Below, piece by piece: positions 31,552 through 51,920 of a stretch of DNA of 64,000 bases. Every line of letters starts with the position of its first letter. Within the stretch, counting starts at the first letter, position 1. The notes under the pieces were generated by a model. The model was given only the letters and a program-made list of their open reading frames with translations. It did not search any database and was not told where the DNA came from. The stretch spans positions 3,340,608-3,404,607 of the forward strand of contig OX638345.1 of the NCBI GenBank assembly GCA_951813535.1, in the 5' to 3' direction. Made by a program: the position numbers and the translations under genes. Source of the DNA: an uncultured Dehalococcoidia bacterium (GTDB taxonomy: Bacteria > Chloroflexota > Dehalococcoidia > Lucifugimonadales > UBA3495).

Positions 31552-33263
31552 AGCCCGAATCCACCGAAGGGTGGCGGTGGCGGCGGTCAGACGAGGGATG
31601 AGGTGTCAGGAAACAGGCTGGCGAGGACCTGATGCCGCTGAAATGGACGATGCGGAGTGCGGCCACCAGGCCAGGGGGATTTTGGCGGCCCGTGGTAGCG
31701 GCGCTGGGAGTGATTTTGAGAGCCGACCGGAGGGGGAGTGCGTCAGGGGCCCAGCCTGACGCAGGTCGGCCAGGCGGTGGGTAATCCGGTGGAGGGGTCG
31801 GACGCCATGAATGGCGTCAGGATGGAAGGGGCAGGGCGCTCAGTTTGGCGAGAGCGCTGCTGAACTGGTTTTGCCAGGGCCAGCCCTGTGGCAGATGCAA
31901 AGTGAGGCGGCGGGCCTTGCGGGTGATGCGTCCGGGGAGGGAGAAGAAGCGTCGTCGGAGGGTCTTGGTGGTCATCACCGGCTCGCCCAGGCCGATGCGT
32001 GTGGTCCAGCGAGCCAGGTTGTGGGCCAGCACTTGGATGGCCAGCCAGGCGGCGTTGGCGGGGAAGCGTCCTGAGGGGAGATGGTTGAGGCCCACGCCGT
32101 ATTTCAGGTCGCGGATGGCGTTCTCGATCTCGGCGTGGCGGCGATGATCGGCCTCGAGATCCAGAGTGTCGCCCTCGCGGTCGGTGATGAAGGCGTGATA
32201 GCTGTAGCTGGTAAACAGCGCCAGTTGGAACCCGGGCGTGGGCTTGACCCTACGACGATGAGCCGCACGGTCGCGGCGTCGGGTTTGCTCTCGAAGGGTA
32301 CATACGTGGTCTCGGCCACGTCGGCGGCGCCCTCCATCCAGTATGGGATGGGCGTCCACTCTGCCTCGGGTATGGCCTCGATGATATTGCGCAGACGGGG
32401 GTGCTGTCGGGCGGTGATGGAGAAGCGGACCTTCGCCTTGCGGCAGACGGCGACGATGGCGTGGTTGTAGAAGCCACTGTCGGCCCGCACGGTGAGTTGA
32501 CCGGTGGCGCCGGCGTGGCGCACGCGGCTCACCGTCTCGCGCAGGAAATTGGTGGCGCCCCGCGCCGTGTTGGCTCGGCCCTGGCGCAGTCGGGCCATCA
32601 GCACCTCTCCGGTGCCAGCGGCGACGGCGAAGAGCGGGTGATAGCCCCGCTGACCGGCGTAGTTGTGGCGCTGCGCGCCCTCCTTGGCCAGCCCAAAGGT
32701 CTCGCAGGCGGTGGAGTCCAGGTCGATGGTCAACGGATCATCGCCCGGCCCGGCGCCAGCCGCCCAGGCTCGAGCCAGCGCCTCCCGGTTCACCCGATCC
32801 AACTGGCGCACGTGGCCCCACCGGAAGCTGCGCAGGAAGGTCCCCAGCGTGGACGGCGCCTTGACCACGCAGCCCAGCACCCGCCCAACCCCGCCAGCGC
32901 GCAGCGCGTCGGCATCGTCAATGCAGTCGCCACCGGCCAGCGCCGATGCCACCAGGGTCAGCATCTTGTCGCCGGCATTGGGCCGACCGGGCGCATCTCC
33001 CAGGTTAACGTGGTTGTCTACCAACTCGCCCAGTCCCAGATGATGGGCCAAAGTGACCGGCAGGATCAGCCCAGCATTGGCCACCAGACGGTGGTCATCA
33101 AAGGCGATTTGGATGCGGTCGGGGTCATTGCGTGGTAGCATCCGATGGGTGCTCCTTGTTTCAGGGTGGTTTTGTGTTTCAAAAACCATTATCCCCGAAG
33201 CCGGGAGCACTTTCTCATCCCATCACCACGGCGCCGCACTCATCCTTTCGGTGGATTGGGGCT
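31552..33263 (-). mobile_element. IS1380-family element, copy A (defective)
   Basis: About 1.7 kb between AGCCCGAATCCACCGAAGGG (from 31552) and its inverted partner ending CGGTGGATTGGGGCT (to 33263). It resembles copy B at 47481-49194 throughout but has a frameshifted transposase. It is inserted in or joined to fragment C. Confidence 0.85.
31817..33141 (-). pseudogene. IS1380-family transposase with one-base deletion
   Basis: Starts at ATG 33141 (MLPRNDPDRIQIAFDDHRLV). Catalytic regions are present: LTIDLDSTACETFGL with the first Asp, and LTVRADSGFYNHAIVAV with the second. Near 32250 one base is missing relative to copy B (ACGACGATGAG against GCGGACGATGAG in plus-strand reading), throwing the Glu-bearing C-terminal part (AEIENAIRDLKYGVGLNHLP) into another frame. 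Confidence 0.85.
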
Positions 33264-34336: not shown

Positions 34337-34741
34337 TCAGGGCTGGATTTTGTCGATGGTCACGTCGCCGTCGGGTTGGGCATCCAGGCAAAGCCGATTG
34401 CCCCAGAGCAGGGCCATTCCCAGCAGTGGCTCACCAGACGCTTCGTGAACCACTGCCGTGCGCATCTCACCGTCCCATAAGACGCGCGCCGCGTAGGTAT
34501 CGGTCATTGTGACCTCGCCGGTGGCTAACTCTGCGGGCCGTTCGCCGATATAGTGAAAATCCAATGTCCGCACAGTTTCCGGCGGCAGGGTCAGGAAAGT
34601 CGTAGCCCCGGTGTCAACCACGGCATCGACGGTTACGGTTCGATCGTCGTCGGTCATGTGACCTACGGTTACCGAAACAATTGCCTTGCCGGTGACTAGG
34701 CGCGGCGGCTCACCCTGAGCGTGTACTTTGCCGCTAATCAT
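34337..34741 (-). CDS. Retropepsin-like (clan AA) aspartic protease
   Basis: 134 residues from ATG 34741. DAVVDTGATTFLTLP contains the catalytic DTGA (43-46). PLLGMALLWGNRLCLDAQPD is the hydrophobic-Gly segment seen near the end of single-domain retropepsins, which work as dimers. The ATG overlaps the stop of the upstream small gene as ATGA, so the two are translationally coupled. A second, only distantly similar unit with the same layout is at 50391-51106. Confidence 0.78.
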   Translation of the reverse strand: MISGKVHAQGEPPRLVTGKAIVSVTVGHMTDDDRTVTVDAVVDTGATTFLTLPPETVRTLDFHYIGERPAELATGEVTMTDTYAARVLWDGEMRTAVVHEASGEPLLGMALLWGNRLCLDAQPDGDVTIDKIQP

Positions 34742-34935
34742 GGGGCACGGACGGACGGTACTATGCGGTGCTCCGCCCGATGCACTGTTGGGTAACCCAC
34801 CCGTTCCGCCCAAGTGATTGCATCGGGACAACGCTCCAGGAGACGCAGCGTAGCGGTGGCTTCGTCGCCTGCAACTTCCCATGCCCTGCTTTTGAAGTCT
34901 ATAATCACTACTGGCCCTTTTTCGGCGTTTATCAA
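34738..34935 (-). CDS. Small partner protein of the retropepsin, about 65 aa
   Basis: The reading from TTG 34935 gives MINAEKGPVVIIDFKSRAWE, then VAGDEATATLRLLERCPDAI. The frame is open further upstream (RDLYHNRIRDL) without a standard start codon, so the true start may lie there. Its stop overlaps the protease start. Small genes placed like this are often antitoxins or regulators, but no known antitoxin fold is visible. Confidence 0.55.
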   Translation of the reverse strand: MINAEKGPVVIIDFKSRAWEVAGDEATATLRLLERCPDAITWAERVGYPTVHRAEHRIVPSVRAP

Positions 34936-35211
34936 GTCGCGGATCCGGTTGTGATAGAGGTCTCTACCCCTAGTAATCGAACATCTTTGAAATGACGGTT
35001 AGTCGAGGTTAGCCTGATTGCACAGCAATATTCGGGAATCGCTGCTCTCCCGTCAGGCTGCCAATTACTCATCCATCAATTCAAAGATGCTGGGTTACTA
35101 GCCCGGGACTACCAGGGAGAGGCCACAGCCCAATTCGTGCCCCGCCCGCCGCCGGTAACCACCACCATTCCTTGCGGCGACGGGTGTTTGGCCAAGACAG
35201 GAGGGCCGTAC

Positions 35212-47480: not shown

Positions 47481-49194
47481 AGCCCGAATCCACCGAGGGG
47501 ATACCGCGGCGGCGATCAGACGAGGGATGCGGGGTCAGGGCATGGGTTGGCGAGGACCGGATGCCGGTGAAATGGACGATGGGTAGTGTGGCTGCTACGC
47601 CAGGGGATGTTTGCGGCCCGTGGTAGCGGCGTTGGGAGCGATTTTCAGCGCAGACCGCCGGCGGAGACCGTGAGGGGCCCAGCCTGAGGCGCTGATCGTC
47701 CAGGCGTGGGGCGTTATTGTGTATAAGTCAAAGGCCGAGGGCGGCGTCAGGAAGGCAGTGGCAGGGCGCGCAGTCTCGCCAGGGCACCAGCGAACTGGTT
47801 CTGCCAGGGCCAGCCCCGGGGAAGATGCAAAGTGAGACGGCGTGCCTTGCGAGTGATGCGTCCGGGGAGGGAGAAGAAGCGTCGTCGGAGGGTCTTGGTG
47901 GTGATCAGTTGCTCTCCCATGCCGATGCGGGCGGTCCAGCGGGCGAGGTTATGCGCCATCACCTGTACTGCCAGCCAGGCGGCGTTGGCGGGGAAGCGCC
48001 CCGAGGGCAGGTGATTGAGCCCCACGCCGTACTTGAGATCGCGGATGGCGTTCTCGATCTCGGCGTGGCGGCGATGGTTGGCCTCCAGTTCCAGGGTGTC
48101 GCCGTCTCTATCGGTGATGAAAGCGTGATAGCTGTGGGTGGCAAGCAGCGCGAGTTGGGAGCCGGGCGTGGGTTTCACTCTGCGGACGATGAGTCGGACC
48201 GATACGGCGTCGGGCTCATGCTGAAACGGAGTGTAGGTGGTCTCCGCCACGTCGGCGGCTCCCTCCATCCAGTAAGGGATGGGCGTCCACTCTGCTTCGG
48301 GTATGGCCTCGATGAGATTGCGCACGCTTTGGTACTGGCGTACGGTGATGGAGAAGCGGACCTTGGTCTTCCGGCAGACGGCGACGATGTCGTGGTTGTA
48401 GAAGCCACTGTCGGCCCGCATGGTCAGTGGCCCGGTGGCCCCCGCGTAGCGCACTCGGCTGATGGTCTCACGCAGGAAGTGGGCGGCCCCTCGAGCGGTG
48501 TTGGCCCGGCCCTGGCGCAGCCGTGCCATCAGCACGTCGCCGGTTCCGGCGGCAACGGCGAGGAGCGGGTGATAGCCCCGCTGTCCCGCGTAGTTGTGGC
48601 GCTGCGCGCCTTCCTTATCCAACCCAAAGGTCTCGCAGACAGTGGAATCAAGATCAATGGTCAGCGGCTCATCGCCGGGTCCGGCACCAGCCGCCCAGGC
48701 CCTCGCCAGCGCCTCTCGGCTCACCCGGTCCAGCTGCCGCACGTGGCCCCATCGGAAACTCCGCAGGAAGGTCCCCAGCGTGGAAGGCGCCTTGACTGCG
48801 CAGCCCAGCACGTGCTCGGTCCCCCCAGCGCGTAGCGCGTCGGCATCATCAATGCAGTCGCCACCGGCCAATGCCGATGCCACCAACGTCAGTATCTTGT
48901 CGCCAGCGTTGGCCCGTCCCGGCGCATCTCCCAAGTCAACGTGGCGGTCAACCAACTCGCCCAGCCCCAGATGATGGGCCAGGGTAACCGGCAAAAGCAG
49001 CCCGGCGTTGGCCACCAAGCGGTGATCGTCAAAGGCGACATGGATGCGGTCAGGACGCTCAGGTGGTAGCATCCGTTGGGTGCTCCTTGTGAGGGATTGG
49101 TTTTCGTTGTCAAAAACCATTATCCCCGAAGCCGGGAGCACTTTCTTATCCCATCACCATGCCGCCACACCCATCCTTTCGGTGGATTGGGGCT
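47481..49194 (-). mobile_element. IS1380-family element, copy B (intact)
   Basis: 1,714 bp between AGCCCGAATCCACCGAGGGG and the inverted CCTTTCGGTGGATTGGGGCT. It carries a complete transposase and disrupts a secreted-protein gene. Related copies: A (31552-33263), fragment C (31120-31551) and fragment D (56149-56480); D is almost identical to B. Confidence 0.88.
47747..49072 (-). CDS. IS1380-family transposase
   Basis: 441 residues from ATG 49072, with AAGGAG about 13 bases before it. The DDE regions are LTIDLDSTVCETFGLDKEGA, LTMRADSGFYNHDIVAVC and ELEANHRRHAEIENAIRDLK with the Glu, followed by GVGLNHLPSGRFPANAAWLA. The open frame extends upstream to 49141, but that part overlaps the terminal region of the element and is unlikely to be translated. 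Confidence 0.9.
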   Translation of the reverse strand: MLPPERPDRIHVAFDDHRLVANAGLLLPVTLAHHLGLGELVDRHVDLGDAPGRANAGDKILTLVASALAGGDCIDDADALRAGGTEHVLGCAVKAPSTLGTFLRSFRWGHVRQLDRVSREALARAWAAGAGPGDEPLTIDLDSTVCETFGLDKEGAQRHNYAGQRGYHPLLAVAAGTGDVLMARLRQGRANTARGAAHFLRETISRVRYAGATGPLTMRADSGFYNHDIVAVCRKTKVRFSITVRQYQSVRNLIEAIPEAEWTPIPYWMEGAADVAETTYTPFQHEPDAVSVRLIVRRVKPTPGSQLALLATHSYHAFITDRDGDTLELEANHRRHAEIENAIRDLKYGVGLNHLPSGRFPANAAWLAVQVMAHNLARWTARIGMGEQLITTKTLRRRFFSLPGRITRKARRLTLHLPRGWPWQNQFAGALARLRALPLPS

Positions 49195-50390
49195 AAGGGA
49201 GCAACACGCCGATGATCCGCCTTTCGTAGGGGTTTAACAAGGCGGCAAACCCGACGAGTAAGCGCCACAATCACGCTAGCCCCGGGCGGACCGCCACACC
49301 GATAGTGAGAACGTCAGCTTCCCTTGGTGCGGGGGAGCAGTCGGACAACCGCGCGTTCGGGGTAGCAAAGATCCGGACCGCGACTACCCCAAATGGATGG
49401 TTCCCAGCGCACGAGACGGCTACGGCATCGCGTGCGAAGGATAGTGCCGTCGAGCGTAACGTGATGGTTCGCAACTGAACATCAGCGAGCGGTGGTCTGC
49501 TGGCTTCGACGCATCTGTTGGTAGTAGACCACGGTAGGTAAACTACCTCGGACGACACGGCGGCGCTCAACATCGAACACTACCAACACCCCGGTCTGAC
49601 ACCGCTGAGAAATCGCCGTAATGGGCACAAACACGGGCTGTGGTCCCATTTTCGGGTCCTCAACGACTTGGGATCATTTCGGTCGACCAAACGGCCTGAG
49701 AACGCGTCTCACAGCTACGGGATTTCCACGAGCCGCTTATCCTGTACGCGACTCCGCGGGAATACGCTGCAGAAGAACTGAATCTCTGGAGTGCCGACGC
49801 CATCGATCCCTGCAGTAACGGATCATCCGGCCTGGATGCAGTTCCTGCACAGCGCCCCTTCTCCGGTTCCTTCGAACGGGATCCTTGAGCAAACCCCAGG
49901 CCACGTTGGGAGAGTTTGTGTCCGGTAGCTTGTGGGCTGTGCTCGGCGTTCTACTCGCCTGACTGGGCCCGTACATCATCCACGCGGCTGCGTGATAAAC
50001 TCACCGGGGCTGGCGCGGGGCAATGTTGCGCGGGTAGATGACGGATAGGCCGGCGGTGTCCCTGAATTACAGCGGTCCGGCCGACTGGTGGCAACCCCCT
50101 GCTAGGAAGCCGGACCGTTGTGATGGGGTGCGTACCGGCCTTGCACAAAAATGAGGGTTTTGGATAGTTCGCACCGCCGTGTTGAACAAAAACCTGCAGT
50201 CAACAACTCGGAATCCTCCGCAGTTTCACCATGACGCAGCTCAGTTGAGCCTCCTCTAATCTCGCCAATACCATCTAACTCCAAAACCACGGCAGGAAGC
50301 AGGAAGACTGTACAGCCACAGTAACCCGTTGCGACCCGAATTGCCTTCAGATACCCTGAAACCGACCCCCATCCTTCCCGGAGGAGCGAA
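49195..50390. other. Gene-poor region right of IS1380 copy B
   Basis: About 1.2 kb with only short frames of poor protein character on both strands. It does not continue the interrupted secreted-protein gene. Probably decayed DNA; I see no inverted repeats or recognisable remnants. Confidence 0.35.
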
Positions 50391-50669
50391 ATGGGCAACC
50401 ACCCAGCATCAGACCACGACGCCATTGAAGACGCCCGCGAAACCATCGCCGGCATTCGGGAACTCGAACGAGTCTCCGCTGCATTCAGGAAAGCATTGCA
50501 GACCTTGGACAATCCTCGCTCCGGCCTGTGGGCCGGCATGACCTCCGACCTGGTACTGAGGTTCGCCCCGGACCAGGAAACCTTGGCTAGGGACCTTCGC
50601 GCCATCTCGCCCAAAGGACCCGCCAGGACCAAGTTCCTAGACCCCCACTCCAAGGTCATGGTCCTATGA
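50391..50669 (+). CDS. Small partner protein of retropepsin unit 2, 92 aa
   Basis: ATG 50391 follows GGAGGAGCGAA. The protein starts MGNHPASDHDAIEDARETIA and is helical, with GIRELERVSAAFRKALQTLD, then LWAGMTSDLVLRFAPDQETL. Its stop overlaps the next start (ATGA). I recognise no family. Its position relative to the protease is the same as that of the 34738 gene, although their sequences are not obviously related. Confidence 0.65.
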   Translation: MGNHPASDHDAIEDARETIAGIRELERVSAAFRKALQTLDNPRSGLWAGMTSDLVLRFAPDQETLARDLRAISPKGPARTKFLDPHSKVMVL

Positions 50670-51106
50670 TCCAAGGCTGGTTTGAAGACGCACAACCCAC
50701 CATTATGGCGCGGGTCCTCATCACCAGGCTCATGGTCAACGCCTACGCCACATTCTTGGTCGACACCGGTTCCGACTCCACCGGAATCCATCCCGACCCC
50801 ACCGTCTTTGCCGACCTGCCCTACGCGCAACTCGAAAACCCCTTCGTCATCACCGGCGCAACCGGCAGCTCAAGGCGCTTCACCGAACCCGCGACCATCG
50901 CCATTGCCAGCGCCGACGGCGCCTCCGTTTACCACTACGACGTAGACATCTGGATAGCGACGCCCCAAGATGTCCCCGCCGGCTTGCCCTGCATACTTGG
51001 TCAGGACATCCTCAAAGACCTGCGGATGACCCACGACCCCACGGACGACATCCTTACTTTCCATGTACGCAGAGCCGACCGCACCATCACACTGTCAGGC
51101 CACTGA
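50666..51106 (+). CDS. Retropepsin-like (clan AA) aspartic protease, unit 2
   Basis: 146 residues from ATG 50666. ATFLVDTGSDSTGIHPD contains DTGS (33-36). VITGATGSSRRFTEPATIAI resembles the flap region. LPCILGQDILKDLRMTHDPT is the LG.D.L segment that closes the retropepsin fold. One active-site Asp per chain means it should act as a dimer. It is translationally coupled to the 92-aa gene. Confidence 0.8.
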   Translation: MIQGWFEDAQPTIMARVLITRLMVNAYATFLVDTGSDSTGIHPDPTVFADLPYAQLENPFVITGATGSSRRFTEPATIAIASADGASVYHYDVDIWIATPQDVPAGLPCILGQDILKDLRMTHDPTDDILTFHVRRADRTITLSGH

Positions 51107-51300
51107 CCGACCCGGTGCCAACCCCAGACACAAGACAAGCCGTAGCACATCGCGACGCTCACACCGGTCAGGTCGCGGTAGCGCCCCCACGCCTCGCCGA
51201 CTACACCGGGACGAGTGCGCCGGTCGGCATTGACACCACACCGACCACCCTCACGTTCCACGTGAAGAGTGAGCGTAAAACGATCGTTTTGGGTCTAACC

Positions 51301-51337
51301 TGCACAAATAATCGCCTCAAAACCGATTATTTGTGCA
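51301..51337. promoter_or_regulatory. Perfect 14-bp inverted repeat, operator- or terminator-like
   Basis: TGCACAAATAATCG (51301-51314) is exactly inverted as CGATTATTTGTGCA (51324-51337) around nine bases (CCTCAAAAC). It is AT-rich in a GC-rich setting and ends 22 bases before the start of the HExxH gene. No T-run follows, so an operator or mRNA hairpin is favoured over a terminator. Confidence 0.6.
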
Positions 51338-51359
51338 AAGCCGGTGCGTACCCAAACCT

Positions 51360-51920
51360 ATGAACCTACCTGATACGGATCCAGTGAATGACCCCGCCGG
51401 CTTGTGGGCGTTGCAGTGGCAACTGATTGAAATCGCCGAGCGTGAATTGGGACCCAGAGACAGGTCGATAACGGTGTATCAACCGACGTTTGCCGACGAT
51501 GGGCCGTTCCGGAGAAATACTCCCAATTTCGACGGAGCCTTTGTCGAGCTGAGCAGGAACGCCGAGCATTACTGGCCCACGGCGGCCTTCGAGATGGCGC
51601 ATGAAACGGTGCACCTGCTCAATCCGGTGGTCCGTGATGCAGGCAATATGCTCGAAGAAGGCGTGGCCGCAGCATTTTCGCTCCACGTTCAACCAATGTA
51701 CGGCTTCACCATGCCGGTAACGATGCCTTCGTACGCTGACGCCATGCAACTAGCTGAGTCTCTTCCCGGGGGAGCCTTGCCGGCGGGGAGGATTATCCGA
51801 GGATCGGCAGTCGCCCTGAGTTCTGCCACCGAAGAATTGCTGGGGCGATTGTTCCCTGGGCTCGACCGAGGAACCCGCGCACGCTTGGCGGGCCGATTCA
51901 ATCGCGATCCAGTTGATTAG
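51360..51920 (+). CDS. Putative zinc metalloprotease-like protein (HExxH)
   Basis: 186 residues from ATG 51360. FEMAHETVHLLNPV contains HETVH (81-85), and NMLEEGVAAAFS gives Glu99/Glu100 about 15 residues later, as in small gluzincin-like domains. There is no signal peptide. The NYN-domain gene starts 24 bases downstream, so they form an operon. A proteolytic or regulatory partner for the NYN protein is possible. No named family recognised. Confidence 0.6.
   Translation: MNLPDTDPVNDPAGLWALQWQLIEIAERELGPRDRSITVYQPTFADDGPFRRNTPNFDGAFVELSRNAEHYWPTAAFEMAHETVHLLNPVVRDAGNMLEEGVAAAFSLHVQPMYGFTMPVTMPSYADAMQLAESLPGGALPAGRIIRGSAVALSSATEELLGRLFPGLDRGTRARLAGRFNRDPVD

Follow-up and report, generated by a model that had tools for sequence, protein, structure and literature searches.

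In two families of prokaryotic retropepsins, enzymes of the HIV-protease-like kind, the protease gene (hereafter P) is almost always preceded, directly and on the same strand, by a gene for a small protein (hereafter S), and the two genes often overlap by exactly four nucleotides. The pair comes in two types, A and B, each with its own S and P families, and both types are represented in the window (i.e., the whole 64,000-nt stretch of DNA analysed here; Table 1). We consider it about evenly balanced whether this pair is a mobile toxin-antitoxin (TA)-like two-gene module in which the retropepsin P is the candidate toxin. More tentatively, at somewhat below even chances, it may represent a new TA class, in which a retropepsin-type toxin would be curbed by a small alpha-beta-beta-alpha-beta S protein, with DUF5678-type (type A) and unnamed type B families in Chloroflexota, Cyanobacteria and Armatimonadota.

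Table 1. Features of the two S-P units, in positions of the window.
Feature	Position	Strand	Description
Unit 1 P, retropepsin (type B, TIGR03698-like)	34337..34741	-	start ATG, 134 aa; VVDTGATTF, DTGA motif
Unit 1 S gene (type B)	34738..34935	-	ORF read from TTG, 65 aa
In-frame stretch upstream of unit 1 S, GRDLYHNRIRD	34936..34968	-	homologous to the family N-terminus
Inverted repeat bounding the unit 2 cassette, left arm	50126..50160	+	35 nt, 77% complementary to the right arm
Conserved unit 2 cassette, ~1.07 kb	50265..51331	+	95% identical block in G005, flanks non-homologous (blastn and whole-genome DNA search)
Shine-Dalgarno-like GGAGGAG before unit 2 S	50380..50386	+	read from the sequence
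Unit 2 S gene (type A, DUF5678-related)	50391..50669	+	ORF, start ATG, 92 aa
Stop-start overlap of unit 2 S and P, ATGA	50666..50669	+	read from the sequence
Unit 2 P, retropepsin (type A)	50666..51106	+	start ATG, 146 aa; LVDTGSDST, DTGS catalytic motif
Perfect 14-bp hairpin with 9-nt loop, cassette 3' end	51301..51337	+	overlaps the right repeat arm
Inverted repeat bounding the unit 2 cassette, right arm	51319..51353	-	pairs with the left arm

The first-pass annotation had recognised both units as a small ORF followed by a retropepsin gene, and they are confirmed, each with its ATGA overlap, where it had placed them; it had also described the sequences of the two units as quite different, which they are (their P proteins cannot be aligned by BLASTP; best E 0.13). 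At the level of family profiles, the two P types do align over the whole domain (profile-profile comparison, E 7.9e-5), as would be expected of two branches of clan AA. In unit 2, the S protein is matched by the type A profile (SA; E 1.8e-18 in the genome profile search) and has no match to DUF5678 (PF18929) in a Pfam scan, a model that its type A relatives do match (12 of the 19; best E 2e-8, above the gathering cut-off). Its P partner stays under the cut-offs of PF13975 (E 1.9e-4) and PF00077 (E 0.003) as well as under that of the NCBIfam model TIGR03698 (12.3 bits; curated cut-off 57.35), and is not preceded by any Shine-Dalgarno-like stretch as strong as that of S. On the 3' side of unit 2, a 195-aa frame (51333-51920) precedes the gene of a NYN-domain protein (PF01936; 51945-52820). 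In unit 1, P scores 52.9 bits against TIGR03698 (E 3.8e-14), again below the curated cut-off, while S is matched by the type B profile (SB; E 3.3e-22, at G000:C1:3375369-3375581 in genome coordinates). The position of this small ORF had been given correctly, but residues homologous to the family N-terminus continue upstream of its TTG, in a stretch without any in-frame ATG, GTG or TTG, which could reflect an N-terminal truncation or lost start, a non-standard start or an assembly error. The window also contains a pair of closely related transposase-like genes (32104-33210 and 47747-49141), one of them shortened, and each lies about 1.1-1.3 kb from one of the two units.

The type A S family was found by reading the DNA 5' of homologues of unit 2 P in related genomes, nearly all of which have a member of it directly in front, whereas relatives of unit 1 P follow a gene of the second family, type B S. 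The alignment of type A S displays the conserved pattern YPDQWVA ... ELxxxLxxxG ... FLDxxP, and that of type B S the pattern GKYVxIDVxSGDYEI ... RRPDA. In Pfam scans, type B S corresponds to no model, and no known DNA-binding domain was detected in S; in some cyanobacteria S carries a fused Unstab_antitox domain (see below). The grouping of type A and type B S into one family by sequence was rejected, the profile-profile comparison being not significant. Structural models suggest that both S families may share a fold: the type B model is arranged as helix-strand-strand-helix-strand-strand and that of unit 2 S (pLDDT 76.5) as helix-strand-strand-helix-strand, with a spacing like that of type B S. 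For type A S, neither the PDB fold search nor sequence comparison returned a match. The P proteins are predicted to adopt the retropepsin fold (clan AA), since the type B model is closest to ApRick 5c9f (Z 12.6, rmsd 3.0, 117 residues aligned) and the type A P profile (A3) matches the FIV, EIAV and ApRick proteases (FIV protease: E 8e-7). The DTG motif is intact in 100 of 102 full-length type B P and present in both P of the window. For a locus in which S and P lie in frame on either side of a stop codon, the model of the read-through chain has both domains confidently folded (pLDDT 88.7), their mutual placement being unsure (pTM 0.60).

The first-pass annotation had proposed that the arrangement itself is conserved, and the sequence searches support this well beyond the two units: homologous proteases do not mostly occur alone, and S is conserved across species and phyla. 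For type A, S lies directly upstream of 50 of the 51 full-length P (99 relatives), with the exact four-nucleotide overlap in 25 of these 50 pairs, and the lone exception is a P with only part of its N-terminus, near a contig start. For type B, a protease-centred search of 50 genomes, all chosen for holding an S, found 101 of 102 full-length P directly behind an S, the one without S being at a contig end; the exact overlap is seen in 82 of the 101 pairs. In the phylum sample (about 200 genomes), 16 genomes carry type B S and 20/21 strong P have an S, while a scan of named genomes retrieved 338 type B S relatives, of which the best 80 come mainly from Cyanobacteria, with some from Chthonomonadaceae/Armatimonadota and Chloroflexi. 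On cyanobacterial plasmids, every full-length P (8/8) lies directly behind an S. Two adjacent and co-oriented genes, the small one usually first and often overlapping the second, are also the layout of type II TA modules.

At face value, such a pair might be no more than an incidental operon of unrelated genes, or the small frames might be spurious, all the more so as ATGA overlaps are common among prokaryotes (PMC6728339). This explanation is already contradicted by the linkage counts, which are near total over Chloroflexota, Cyanobacteria and Armatimonadota in two separate S-P families, as well as by the purifying selection on S and the co-divergence of S and P (see below), and we regard it as extremely improbable. 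Between unit 2 S and its relative in another genome (G005), there are 10 synonymous and six non-synonymous changes (pS 0.146, pN 0.029), a comparison that indicates purifying selection on S; given this excess of pS over pN and the existence of two conserved protein families, the small frames are not a product of chance.

Two units turned out to be too low a count. Searches of this 4.38-Mb genome with the S profiles (E < 1e-11) yielded four type A and 13 type B S matches, and all of them (17/17) lie directly 5' of a retropepsin. Two type A partners are damaged, the P at 3549885 being shortened and the P at 405200-405611 being split over two frames. The latter pair belongs to a cluster (G000:C1:403500-417000) where about 12 kb hold at least five S-P units, with both types represented and three units in tandem. 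About eight further retropepsins of this genome belong to a third type (MGTF..., LLGATTLE) and have no small partner, so the S-P linkage is a property of two subfamilies, not of retropepsins generally. Three of these third-type genes stand in a row at 4195.6-4196.8 kb (e.g., 4195610, 4196046).

S and P also diverged together, as their distances correlate over 139 pairs (r 0.77). In this genome only, the correlation is found among 13 paralogous pairs (r 0.56, p 5e-4), where it does not stem from species history, since all these pairs reside in one genome. Such co-divergence, together with the tight coupling and the protease fold of P, would suit a dedicated substrate or precursor, i.e., an S protein that P cleaves to free an active peptide or to turn S off, and a precedent exists in the type II antitoxin cleaved by MaOC1 (PMC7935541). 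Yet the S alignments show no conspicuous invariant protease-like site, a lone S frequently persists without P while under selection (see below), and mobility is not required of substrate pairs; we therefore hold a substrate role of S to be improbable.

Mobility is indeed a property of the pair, which is patchy and multi-copy, as evidenced by the 17 units of this genome, the 16 positive genomes out of 201 in the phylum sample, the plasmid-borne copies and the cassette that unit 2 shares with G005 (Table 1). The 5' neighbour of the block in G005 is an HNH endonuclease-like gene, whose closest relative here lies elsewhere (77%). Inside the block, divergence amounts to 5.7% for S and 2.1% for P, compared with 10.3% and 6.6% for the flanking DNA. 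The inverted repeat that bounds the cassette has a 23-nt core present only at these two sites in the genome, and it is absent from the G005 copy. A phage origin of type B was considered and rejected, there being no S or P match in phage records and no S match in viral contigs.

When one partner is lost, it is nearly always P. Seen from the S side, type A loci have an intact P in 50 of 62 cases and not in the other 12, while among 80 type B S loci, P is intact at 45 (47 minus two with an early frameshift, L147 and L176) and broken or missing at 35. The asymmetry between P without S and S without P yields Fisher p-values of 4e-14 (type B) and 0.006 (type A), which overstate the independence of the data, because the genomes of the type B P were chosen for an S and the sequences are related; all three samples agree in its direction. 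In other words, the toxin-like gene is not kept without the antitoxin-like gene, while the reverse occurs, just as solitary antitoxin-like genes are frequent in type II TA modules and solitary toxin-like genes are not. An S acting as cofactor, adaptor or substrate would produce the same asymmetry. According to the omega values, both genes are under purifying selection (omega of P: 0.22), the median omega of S being 0.16 in pairs, and 0.20 and 0.22 beside a broken or absent P. These low values beside a broken or absent P imply that a lone S does not decay freely, at least initially. Moreover, two genomes (G340 and G342) hold an S without any P above threshold and, given such P-less genomes and the selection on lone S, this protein may do a job of its own. 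At two loci (L084 and L092), a type B S without protease lies just 3' of a gene reading like a PIN-type protein, possibly another partner.

These data bear on the main rival interpretation, in which P would serve in housekeeping or under stress as a regulated protease, with S as an obligate partner (an adaptor, a folding helper or a switch of dimerisation or activity), the pair not being addictive and P alone being useless instead of toxic. Such a partnership accounts for P being hardly ever found without S and for the purifying selection on both genes, a selected lone S fits a protein with additional roles, and partnered retropepsins are known from bacteria, where RimB binds and regulates RimK (PMC12239564). 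However, it leaves unexplained the patchy multi-copy spread (16/201 genomes of the phylum vs. 13 copies here), the mobility of the cassette, the antitoxin-domain fusion and the TA arrays (see below), and it gives no account of the frequent breakage of P while S stays open. Overall, we deem an obligate partnership possible, albeit rather unlikely.

The first-pass annotation had suggested either a toxin-antitoxin-like or a substrate-protease pair, an idea that is partly borne out: it is the TA-like side that gains support, from the one-sided loss and the mobility as well as from an antitoxin-domain fusion, TA arrays and a BREX locus. At six Oscillatoriales loci, type B S is fused N-terminally to an Unstab_antitox-like domain (PF09720, putative addiction module component), and Pfam scans of the fused S at four of these loci recovered it (E 7.6e-9 to 3.5e-4; three above the cut-off). 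The fused-S loci sit in arrays with HicA, ParE, DUF433 and UPF0150 genes and one such genome has the fused gene flanked by a UPF0150-HicA pair on one side and a ParE toxin gene on the other, with DUF433 near. This fusion is found in one cyanobacterial group only and could have arisen by chance recombination within a TA array. Pairs on plasmids adjoin ParD and RelE/ParE genes. In Planktothrix rubescens (L192, 4235-5816), UPF0150/HicB-like, DUF433 and DUF5615 genes separate P from S, and in Nostoc sp. MS1 (plasmid pNSMS101, 250823-251460), an S-P pair lies inside a BREX locus, with pglX and pglZ on either side and on the opposite strand. Against control regions, the flanks show weak enrichment in defence or TA genes (Uma2 14/288 near pairs, HicA 3, DUF5615 3; Uma2 did not recur as a family in the 105 control ORFs), so these TA and BREX neighbours are to be read as examples, not as statistics. 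PADLOC was too noisy for the flanks; on the pair itself, its only matches were weak ones, between one type B P and models of aspartyl proteases, among them a Sulfolobales type III operon model.

Among known systems, the type II TA modules (ParDE/RelBE with Unstab_antitox antitoxins, HicBA, DUF433-DUF5615) resemble the S-P pair in several respects: a small upstream gene overlaps an enzyme gene, the modules are multi-copy, patchy and plasmid-borne, the pair stands in arrays with them, and S is fused to their Unstab_antitox domain in some genomes. Their toxins, however, are nucleases or gyrase poisons, whereas the candidate toxin here is a retropepsin-type protease, and S, unlike type II antitoxins, has no recognised DNA-binding domain. 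Protease-containing TA-like pairs have also been predicted for the ImmA/IrrE-type (COG2856) protease-Xre pairs (PMC2701414), but these combine a Zn metalloprotease and an HTH repressor, with folds unrelated to those of S and P; in the excerpts of that TA census, no aspartic protease pair was found. With the single-domain prokaryotic peptidases of clan AA (COG5550/TIGR03698, TIGR02281; ApRick/APRc of Rickettsia), P has the DTG motif and the retropepsin fold in common, and differs from them in almost always occurring with S. Excerpts of a review (PMC2642776) present these peptidases as little known and do not name a partner. RimB-type bacterial retropepsins are, like P, encoded beside functional partners (PMC12239564), yet their partners are ATP-grasp or transmembrane proteins, these systems are secreted or ribosome-linked, and they are not a mobile two-gene cassette. 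As for DUF5678, which the relatives of type A S match, it has no function or partner on record, and the single paper found in the literature was irrelevant. In the literature searched, mostly without subscription papers and preprints, no description of the S-P pair was found; the pair thus seems undescribed, with uncertain priority, and a protease toxin of such a kind would be new.

If the pair does act as a TA-like module, translation would begin with S, at its own ribosome-binding site, and would reach P through re-initiation at the overlapping ATGA, so that no P would be made without S. The small alpha-beta-beta-alpha-beta S protein would then bind and restrain a cytosolic, DTG-active P, or keep it unassembled, whereas after the loss or degradation of S, P would cleave cellular or foreign proteins, and the cell would be harmed or arrested. 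Such a module might serve addiction, plasmid stability or defence.

Single-domain retropepsins occur widely among prokaryotes, almost none of them has a known role, and the origin of the retroviral proteases is debated. Through the linkage described here, hundreds of these retropepsins acquire a single partner that can be tested, along with a concrete hypothesis. Should P prove to be a toxin, the pair would form a proteolytic, retropepsin-based TA system of relevance to plasmid stability and to defence in Cyanobacteria; otherwise, S would still represent a dedicated natural regulator of such an enzyme. A function for DUF5678 would follow.
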